The notes under the pieces were generated by a model. The model saw nothing but the letters and a program-made list of their open reading frames with translations. It had not been told where the DNA came from and did no database searches. A stretch of 64,000 nt of DNA from positions 1 to 64,000 of the forward strand of contig CANRCK010000003.1 in NCBI GenBank assembly GCA_947629095.1, written 5' to 3'. Positions 6,543-8,473 of this stretch are shown piece after piece. The position numbers and the translations under genes are program-made. Position 1 is the stretch's first letter. Each line of letters opens with the position of its first letter. The stretch is from an uncultured Clostridia bacterium (GTDB lineage Bacteria; Bacillota; Clostridia; Christensenellales; Borkfalkiaceae).

Positions 6543-7183
6543 AAATCCGTTATCTCGGTCATTCCTCGTTCAAGCTCACCTCCGCGGCGGGAGTTTCGGT
6601 CGTCACCGACCCGTACGCTCCCGAAGTGGGCTTTGCAATGTCCTGCGTCACGGCGGACGTCGTAACCGTTTCGCACCACCATTTCGACCACGACTGCACA
6701 GGCGCCGTCGGCGGCAATCCCCGCATAATAGACAAAGCCGTAACCTGCAATGCGGAGGGAATAGAAATAAGCGCCGTAAATAGCTTTCACGACGGCGTTC
6801 ACGGCAAAAAGCGGGGGGAAAACATAATTTTCAAATTCCGCGTCGACGGCATAGACGTATGCCATCTCGGCGACTTGGGCGAAGCGTGTTCCGCCGACCT
6901 TATCGCAAATATCTCCCCCGTGGACGTCCTTATGATTCCCGTCGGCGGCAACTATACCATAGACGCGGCAACGGCTAAGGAGTACGTGGAAAGGCTCAAC
7001 CCGGGCGTCGTAATACCGATGCACTACCGCGCGGAAGGCTGCAAAGTGGATATCGAAGGCATACGCCCTTTTTTAAATTTATTCGATAAAAGCCTTGTGT
7101 CCCAAGACGGTTCCTGCGAAATCGAACTCACACCGGGCGACCTTTGCGGCAAAATGCGTATAATAGTTTTAAGGAGGGCATAA
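6539..7183 (+). CDS. Metallo-beta-lactamase-fold hydrolase (UlaG/UPF0173-like)
   Basis: A 214-residue metal-dependent hydrolase. The start MKIRYLGHSSFKL and the metal motif SHHHFDHDC are typical of the small UPF0173/UlaG-like branch of the fold; further metal ligands are seen in HLGDLGE and in IPMHYR near the C-terminus. The substrate is unknown. The ATG at 6539, inside the preceding stop and behind AAAGGAGA, is preferred to a longer in-frame reading from 6374 that would overlap the DUF1934 gene. Confidence 0.88.
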   Translation: MKIRYLGHSSFKLTSAAGVSVVTDPYAPEVGFAMSCVTADVVTVSHHHFDHDCTGAVGGNPRIIDKAVTCNAEGIEISAVNSFHDGVHGKKRGENIIFKFRVDGIDVCHLGDLGEACSADLIANISPVDVLMIPVGGNYTIDAATAKEYVERLNPGVVIPMHYRAEGCKVDIEGIRPFLNLFDKSLVSQDGSCEIELTPGDLCGKMRIIVLRRA

Positions 7184-7186
7184 ACC

Positions 7187-8473
7187 ATGGCGGGTGAAAC
7201 TATGCTTGCCGATCTGCGCGAGCGGCTTCACAAAAAATCCATACACGAAGTGCGGCTCATTGCCCGCGCGGTCGGGGTCCGCAATCCCACGGACGGCAAA
7301 AAGGATTTTATTATAGACAAAATAATCGAAATCGCCTCGTGCAAAACTTCTCCCACGCCCCGCTCTGCGCGCGGCGCGCCCCCCAAATCCAACGGCTTTG
7401 ACGAGTCAATCGTAACCGATATACGCGAGTGTATTAAGTTTTTCGGTTCCTGCGTGGATGCCGAAGGCTCCGAGCCCTCCGATTGCTCCGTTTCGGACGG
7501 CGGCGAACAGCGCTGTTCGGGATTATTGGACAGGTCCGAAAAATACGCCTTTCTCCGCACCGGGGGCTTGCTCAAAAGCCCCAATGACGTATACGTTGCG
7601 GATACGGTCATAAAGAGGTTCAACTTAAAGCCGGGCGATAAAATAGAGGGGGTCAGCCACCGCACGCAAAACGGCTCCGCGGTTTCGGCAATAACCTCCG
7701 TCAACGGCTTCACGCCCGACTCATTCCCCCGCAGGGAGTTCGGCTCCCTGACCCATATATATCCGCACGCCAAAATAAATTTAAGCGGTTCGTCGCAGGA
7801 TATATGGGCACGAATGGTCGATTTATTCTCTCCCTTGGGCTACGGACAGCGCGCCGTCGTCTCCGTTCCCGCAAATTTCAACAAAATCTCCATAGTTAAG
7901 CCGATTGCCTCGGCAATATCCTCAAACGAACAGTCCCAAGCAATCATTTTTCTCGTCGGCGGCTATCCCGAGGAGGTCACCGATATCCGCCGCTCGTTCC
8001 CGGGCGCGGACGTGTTTTCAACTTCTCTCTCCGCAAGCGCGGAGGAAAACGCCGCTGCGGCTGAGCTGGTTGCGCAGTACTCCCAAAGAATTGCCGAGTG
8101 CGGCAAAAACGCCGTTTTGATAATCTGCGGTCTCTCCTCTCTCGGCGCGGCGGCAATGCGCGTTTTATCTTTGGCAATCAACGCCGAGGAGGGCGGGTCG
8201 CTCACGGTAGTGGGGTTTGTAAGCGCCACGGGCGAATACTCGTCGGAAAATTCCGCCCTTCTGTTCAGCGCCGCAAATATGCGGCTCGTTATAACCAACG
8301 AATCCTATCCCGCAATCGATATTTGCGGATCCTTTGCGCTCGGCAGCGATTATCTTCAAACTCCCAAGGAGCTTGCCGCAGCCGCAGCTTTCCGCAAAAA
8401 GAACCCCGCGGATGTATTGAATATATTTATGAGTACCGCAAGCAATGCGGAAATAATTTCAAATGGCAGATAA
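7187..8473 (+). CDS. Degenerate Rho-like protein (probable pseudo-ATPase)
   Basis: A 428-residue homologue of termination factor Rho across its whole length. Domains: a Rho_N/SAP-like helical segment (residues 6-50), a polar linker, an RNA-binding OB fold starting AFLRTGG (121-180; compare GFLR, DVYV, IKRFNL, GD), and a RecA-like domain (205-420) recognised by SPLGYGQR, PEEVTDIRR, EEGGSLTV and SYPAID. Catalytic motifs are lost: Walker A PPKAGKT reads PANFNKI, the catalytic Glu region DERPEEVT reads GGYPEEVT, Walker B LLDS reads ICGL, the Arg-finger segment is replaced, and the Q-loop stretch is deleted (about 20 residues). A strong AAGGAGG site, intact frame and 11-base overlap with obgE argue for a working gene, not a pseudogene. 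Function unknown; RNA binding is plausible. Confidence 0.85.
   Translation: MAGETMLADLRERLHKKSIHEVRLIARAVGVRNPTDGKKDFIIDKIIEIASCKTSPTPRSARGAPPKSNGFDESIVTDIRECIKFFGSCVDAEGSEPSDCSVSDGGEQRCSGLLDRSEKYAFLRTGGLLKSPNDVYVADTVIKRFNLKPGDKIEGVSHRTQNGSAVSAITSVNGFTPDSFPRREFGSLTHIYPHAKINLSGSSQDIWARMVDLFSPLGYGQRAVVSVPANFNKISIVKPIASAISSNEQSQAIIFLVGGYPEEVTDIRRSFPGADVFSTSLSASAEENAAAAELVAQYSQRIAECGKNAVLIICGLSSLGAAAMRVLSLAINAEEGGSLTVVGFVSATGEYSSENSALLFSAANMRLVITNESYPAIDICGSFALGSDYLQTPKELAAAAAFRKKNPADVLNIFMSTASNAEIISNGR

Follow-up and report, generated by a model that had tools for sequence, protein, structure and literature searches.

Rho is normally an ATP-driven motor that stops transcription, and it is usually treated as either present in a species or lost from it. 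Chloroplasts have a Rho_N protein without a Rho motor, RHON1, which is eukaryotic and is not known to be a Rho orthologue or to have an OB or RecA part. Here we describe a degenerate rho orthologue at positions 7187 to 8473 of a 64,000-nucleotide stretch of DNA from an uncultured Clostridia bacterium (assembly GCA_947629095.1, contig CANRCK010000003.1, positions 1 to 64,000; hereafter the window). With high confidence we regard this gene as the only rho found in its genome, as an orthologue that has lost the motifs of an ATP-driven translocase, and as still under purifying selection. A profile survey of 93 genomes of the genus found a rho-like gene in 84; scored at nine motor positions of E. 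coli Rho (K326 allowing Arg), 32 of these keep all nine (canonical), 51 have lost at least one (degenerate) and one was left unscored (G109, in which the gene is split between contigs). Among described bacterial proteins, the Rho of M. tuberculosis is reported to be a weak motor in which the R-loop Lys is replaced by Thr (PMC8828861), and Bacteroides Rho is reported to carry a regulatory disordered region (PMC10284900, PMC13269538).

The motor positions of the window protein were read residue by residue against E. coli Rho. NKI stands in place of the P-loop GK[ST], Gly occupies E. coli E211 (DERPEE to GGYPEE) and Cys occupies D265, which we take to be the Walker B Asp of E. coli Rho, while the Arg finger R366, the R-loop K326 and the Q loop are all absent. 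The primary RNA-binding pocket of the OB fold, presumably formed by the positions of F62, F64, R66 and Y80 in E. coli Rho, is kept as Y, F, R and Y. The functions assigned here to E211, R212, K184 (Walker A), K326 and the Q and R loops of Rho agree with PMC8828861, and the assignment of R366 as the Arg finger agrees with PMC11829017. Judged by its sequence, the window protein is a Rho by descent that lacks the motifs defining Rho as a motor, and is most likely a non-translocating Rho derivative. The gene and its parts are as follows (window coordinates, strand, feature, basis; ORF, open reading frame):

7187..8473, +, degenerate rho orthologue of 428 aa with ATG start and TAA stop (ORF reading, profile matches)
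7171..7179, +, Shine-Dalgarno-like sequence AAGGAGGGC, with the ATG 7 nt further on (direct reading)
7187..7438, +, N-terminal module, residues 1-84, Rho_N-like helices and linker, more conserved than any other part in degenerate relatives (regional identity)
7370..7390, +, RGAPPKS motif, residues 62-68 (pattern count)
7517..7717, +, OB fold, PF07497 Rho_RNA_bind, residues 111-177, with YAFLR (7544-7558) and DVYV retained (Pfam, E. coli alignment)
7868..7888, +, degenerate P-loop PANFNKI, residues 228-234, canonical PPKAGKT (E. coli and clade alignments)
7958..7993, +, GGY replacing the catalytic DER, then the conserved PEEVTDIRR, residues 258-269 (E. coli and clade alignments)
8123..8134, +, ICGL replacing Walker B LLDS, residues 313-316 (E. 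coli and clade alignments)
8150..8158, +, approximate junction at which about 21 residues including the Q loop are gone (profile-profile gap, Q-loop lengths)
8186..8209, +, conserved EEGGSLTV, residues 334-341 (alignments)
8231..8251, +, GEYSSEN replacing the R-loop segment DTGSK(M/L)D (E. coli and clade alignments)
8330..8356, +, SFALGSDYL replacing the Arg-finger segment SG(T/A)R(K/R)EELL (E. coli and clade alignments)
8463..8473, +, 11-nt overlap of the rho stop and the obgE start (direct reading)

Canonical Rho copies of the genus are 476-496 aa long, against 428 aa for the window protein. In profile-profile alignment with 11 canonical genus Rho the window protein matched over 424 columns at 100% probability, a comparison that serves as evidence of homology only. 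Pfam recognized Rho_RNA_bind above threshold (53.3 bits, cut-off 27) and, weakly, ATP-synt_ab (33.4 bits, cut-off 29.5), with Rho_N below its cut-off (12.3 of 24.9 bits). NCBIfam Rho models matched at ∼160 bits (E ∼1e-46), below their cut-offs; the TIGR00767 score was 159.7 bits against a cut-off of 509.45, which none of the 93 genus genomes passes, canonical ones included, so that it does not discriminate here. All 14 matches among PDB sequences were to Rho, the best being 7oqh (E 1e-36).

A first-pass annotation made from the sequence alone had read the open 428-aa ORF (7187-8473), its ribosome-binding site and its overlap with obgE correctly. Alignment with E. coli Rho bore out the changes that it described at Walker A, the catalytic Glu, Walker B and the Arg finger, the ∼20 residues that it reported missing at the Q loop appear as a ∼21-residue gap in the profile-profile alignment, and profile searching recovered the Rho homology that it claimed (NCBIfam ∼160 bits; PDB 7oqh). 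Its statement that Rho features persist along all 428 residues stood in part: the domain order, GQR, PEEVTDIRR, EEGGSLT and PAID are kept, whereas across degenerate relatives good conservation is confined to residues 1-84, the OB and RecA-like parts having diverged.

The window gene is the single TIGR00767 match in its own genome (1.49 Mb, 85% complete). Downstream and on the same strand, obgE follows rho in 80 of the 80 genus genomes with both genes on one stretch, within 150 nt in 78; adjacency could not be seen in G020, G063, G085 and G116. In the rho tree, 80 genus sequences form a single group against 15 order relatives (99% support in the Shimodaira-Hasegawa-like approximate likelihood ratio test, SH-aLRT), and the degenerate copies need at least two origins: the window falls inside a degenerate clade of 39 rows, and a second degenerate group of seven rows is nested in a canonical clade, with G066 and G067 assigned to neither. 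On the obgE tree, which covers 77 of 83 classified genomes, five changes are needed, and strong branch support makes two of these unavoidable; both trees were quick searches. By position and tree, the window gene is the rho orthologue itself and not a partner of true Rho.

A paralogue beside a true Rho was rejected, given the single match in the window's own genome and the lack of a second Rho-like gene in the 51 degenerate genomes. Extra profile matches in those 51 are either fragments of the rho gene already counted or weak (≤44 bits), the weak ones probably being ATP-synthase subunits or other ATPases. The same survey left the first-pass suggestion of a partner or inhibitor of true Rho unsupported, and the obgE-linked gene that was to be sought beside a canonical rho in relatives proved to be the rho orthologue, with no canonical rho found beside it. 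A proposed role in ribosome assembly has adjacency to obgE as its whole basis, and four genomes keep obgE with no rho there. Secondary TIGR00767 matches of 37-44 bits, V/F-type ATPase-like, occur in 19 of 32 canonical vs. 5 of 51 degenerate genomes; all five of the latter belong to the recently degenerated group, which may reflect shared ancestry. One genome, G085, carries two full rho genes of canonical score on contigs C3 and C31, possibly through contamination.

Selection was assessed by the ratio of nonsynonymous to synonymous substitution rates (dN/dS, omega), obtained as simple Nei-Gojobori counts with dS near saturation in several pairs. For degenerate genes, all nine close pairs have an omega between 0.09 and 0.24 (Fisher p ≤2.7e-10), the pair that includes the window gene (G000-G006) having 0.164 (p 1e-44); the unsaturated degenerate pairs G101-G105 (dS 0.11) and G034-G073 (dS 0.31) gave 0.166 and 0.131, and ten canonical rho pairs 0.04-0.17. 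Under neutrality, 6-127 stop-making substitutions are expected in the nine degenerate pairs, and of 49 assessable degenerate copies, 48 have an uninterrupted frame. Wider, overlapping sets of pairs gave median omegas of 0.195 (52 degenerate) vs. 0.146 (43 canonical). Within the window clade, three other species are 61-68% identical to the window gene, and GGYPE, CGxS, EEGGSLTV, GEYxSxN, AANMRL and SFxLGxxYLQ are fixed in all four sequences. The idea of a maintained pseudo-ATPase, first raised from the sequence, thus holds given the open frame, the omega of the G000-G006 pair and these three clade species. A pseudogene was rejected on the open frame, the same omega of 0.164 and the values far from 1 in the other pairs. 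The sole degenerate rho with an interrupted frame, L038 in G020, could be either a genuine pseudogene or a product of misassembly.

Residue losses were tabulated in 48 assessable degenerate copies, excluding G020 for its interrupted frame, G063 for masked letters, G078 for lying at a contig end, and L032, a locus from the related-locus search that was dropped as a duplicate of G107, with which it agrees at the tabulated sites. Retention was lowest at K326 (as K or R, 2 copies), R366 (6), E211 (9) and K181 (10), intermediate at R353 (22) and R212 (32), and highest at the P-loop residues G183, K184 and T185 (39, 38 and 39) and at D265 (41). The R-loop Lys was therefore lost in 46 copies, the Arg finger in 42 and the catalytic Glu in 39, and of the 32 copies that keep both the P-loop GK[ST] and the Walker B Asp, 31 have lost E211 or R366. 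Because degenerate species share ancestry, these counts are not independent events. As read from these residues, a protein in the usual degenerate state may still bind ATP but should not hydrolyse it or translocate. Every tabulated position is lost in six copies, the four of the window clade and those of G103 and G104. Within the genus, a single locus shows Rho in canonical, partly decayed and fully motor-dead form as well as its absence, and the window protein marks one end of this graded series, in which residues for catalysis and translocation are mostly lost and those for ATP binding usually kept, the window clade having lost both.

Conservation among degenerate copies is concentrated at the N-terminus. 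Of the 93 genus genomes, 83 contain a match to the N-terminal 90 residues. Pairwise identity between degenerate copies averages 0.45 in Rho_N and 0.51 in the linker (residues 53-84), falling to 0.34 in the OB fold and 0.36-0.38 in the ATPase, the reverse of the order in canonical copies (0.55, 0.57, 0.73 and 0.74-0.85, respectively). A GAPPKS-like pattern is present in all 32 canonical copies and in 46 of the 48 degenerate ones; the six further copies of the family that were read have RGAPPK, RGAPVK, RGAPAK or KGAPVK wherever the motif is visible (it lies outside the part of G333 that was read), and some order relatives have RGRPPK. In the window clade, the ratio of dN in the N-terminus to dN in the rest is clear, at 0.32 and 0.45. 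Module-like sequence was also seen outside rho: a free-standing 88-aa ORF in G023 (L193:812-1078) has Rho_N-like helices followed by KRRLAPEK... and adjoins an ORF at 527-727 that looks helix-turn-helix-like by eye, and a 252-aa ORF in G005 (L192:1091-1849) has a module-like C-terminal part joined to an unknown domain. Both are weak matches (E ∼5e-4), and Pfam puts neither in Rho_N and finds no match at all for the G023 ORF.

No rho match was found in nine of the 93 genus genomes, of which five may be assembly gaps because obgE lies at a contig end (G009, G076) or no complete obgE is present (G079, G092, G093). At the level of the order, the matches listed cover 282 of 297 genomes, with 160 genomes scoring above the cut-off, and the weakest matches look like ATP-synthase subunits; in families f26 and f29, most of the sampled genomes have weak matches only. 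Eleven of 14 order loci were aligned (two contig-end pieces and one ATP-synthase-like match were omitted), giving five canonical copies (genera g26 and g27) and six degenerate ones (G307, G333, G143, G247, G330 and G169), a proportion that is no rate, as several loci were chosen for their low scores. The rho copies of the order relatives G039 and G044 are also degenerate. Degenerate rho was also observed elsewhere in the order, in further genera and families, at L183, L185, L188, L189, L187, L190, L043 and L049, and in three of these, from genus g4 of family f4 (L183, L185 and L188), the P-loop and Walker B are lost.

Taken whole, the explanation that we somewhat favor is a selected, motor-dead rho orthologue that works by a passive, Rho-derived binding or scaffold mechanism; the specific mechanism on its own, a passive nucleic-acid-binding or scaffold protein derived from Rho, we put forward tentatively. 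Such a protein would no longer pull RNA off RNA polymerase. Docking, either to a partner or to nucleic acid, is the probable task of its Rho_N and RGAPPKS module; the OB fold may bind RNA where the YxFLR pocket is kept, as in the window clade, and the RecA-like domain would take part in assembly or, in the majority of the other degenerate species, in sensing ATP. For the genus at large, we consider the chances evenly balanced that two or more independent conversions turned the termination motor into a selected pseudoenzyme, dead for hydrolysis and translocation, mostly still ATP-binding (the window clade excepted), with its function largely in the N-terminal Rho_N and RGAPPKS module.

Several results weigh against this interpretation. 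The RGAPPKS motif is degraded in G096 and G097, the N-terminus/rest dN ratio per pair does not differ significantly between degenerate and canonical genes (p = 0.13; 0.03 only without G101-G105), and the contrast reverses in G101-G105 and G077-G099. The OB pocket is eroded outside the window clade, with Arg or Lys at the R66 position in 31 and an aromatic residue at F62 in 18 of 48 degenerate copies, and RNA binding is therefore no common denominator. Pooled omega is ∼1.6 times higher in degenerate than in canonical genes (0.186 vs. 0.113), the wider, non-independent degenerate set spans 0.09-0.39 (48 pairs with finite dS) with the highest values in the recently degenerated group, and obgE evolves much more slowly than degenerate rho in the same pairs. 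In G024, G070, G071 and G072 a hydrolase gene adjoins obgE and rho is cleanly missing, so the function is dispensable there.

Purine content and terminators likewise give no genomic sign of lost Rho termination. One study reports a much weaker purine bias in rho-less Bacilli and quotes 54% purine for B. subtilis genes (PMC13323073). Gene purine content, taken over 20-kb regions with replication strand not resolved and gene calls crude, was 0.524 in 10 canonical genomes, 0.530 in 11 degenerate, 0.540 in 3 rho-less and 0.529 in 11 canonical order genomes (canonical vs. degenerate p = 0.25), and it reached 0.578 in G044, a degenerate order genome. Overall purine content of obgE did not differ between 28 canonical and 44 degenerate rows (p = 0.28); at its fourfold sites it was slightly higher in degenerate rows (0.381 vs. 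0.363, p = 0.011), opposite to the prediction. Intrinsic terminators showed no clear difference, either at convergent gene ends (14 of 58 canonical, 15 of 70 degenerate, 1 of 8 rho-less, 16 of 58 order) or in same-strand gaps (8 of 34, 10 of 42, 4 of 14 and 12 of 47). Fourfold-site purine is low genus-wide, in canonical and degenerate genomes alike (class means 0.36-0.41, with overall gene purine of 0.52-0.53 in the 20-kb regions).

The alternative that survives best, which we consider unlikely, is slow decay, in which Rho became dispensable in the lineage, constraint relaxed and the gene is heading for loss as in the rho-less relatives. It would account for the nine matchless genomes (five of them possible assembly gaps) and the clean empty site in the four inspected, an omega above that of canonical rho, the interrupted copy of G020 and the mostly weak matches in the sampled genomes of families f26 and f29. 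It has to contend with omegas of 0.09-0.24 in nine pairs of genes that were already degenerate (p ≤2.7e-10), with 48 of 49 assessable copies uninterrupted, with residue loss so uneven that the P-loop and D265 are mostly retained, and with an N-terminal module nearly as conserved as in canonical copies. Somewhat less probable again is a Rho that still forms a ring and senses nucleotides, controlling transcription without translocating, perhaps through capture of nascent RNA or of RNA polymerase; the window clade would then be a further step at which nucleotide binding was lost too. The 32 of 48 copies that keep the P-loop GK[ST] and D265, 31 of them without E211 or R366, fit such a ring, whereas the window protein has neither the P-loop Thr nor the Walker B Asp, which makes ATP sensing unlikely as its function. 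That the ORF persists chiefly because its translation, as a leader, is coupled to that of obgE, as the 11-nt overlap in the window and the obgE adjacency across the genus might suggest, is very improbable, since amino-acid constraint is found away from the overlap, a coupling ORF needs no conserved RGAPPKS and four relatives keep obgE without rho there.

A selected, motor-dead Rho, as we read the window protein, suggests a second job for Rho, and the series within the genus makes testable a Rho function apart from translocation, the binding target of the N-terminal module and a route away from Rho-dependent termination. No description of a motor-dead Rho was found in open-access literature listings, most subscription papers and all preprints lying outside their reach. 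With Rho itself (TIGR00767 / NF006886) the window protein shares the order of Rho_N, OB and RecA-like parts, the locus, its place in the tree, and GQR, PEEVTDIRR, EEGGSLT and PAID; it differs in having lost the P-loop Thr, catalytic Glu, Walker B Asp, Q loop, R-loop Lys and Arg finger. Its likeness to RHON1 lies in a Rho_N domain used apart from the Rho ATPase. With M. tuberculosis Rho (PMC8828861) it has in common an altered R-loop and a long N-terminal part, and 7oqh is its best PDB sequence match. Bacteroides Rho resembles it in that a part other than the motor has its own function; there, termination activity is reported to be present and tuned (PMC10284900, PMC13269538), whereas the window protein has kept the N-terminal module and lost the motor motifs.
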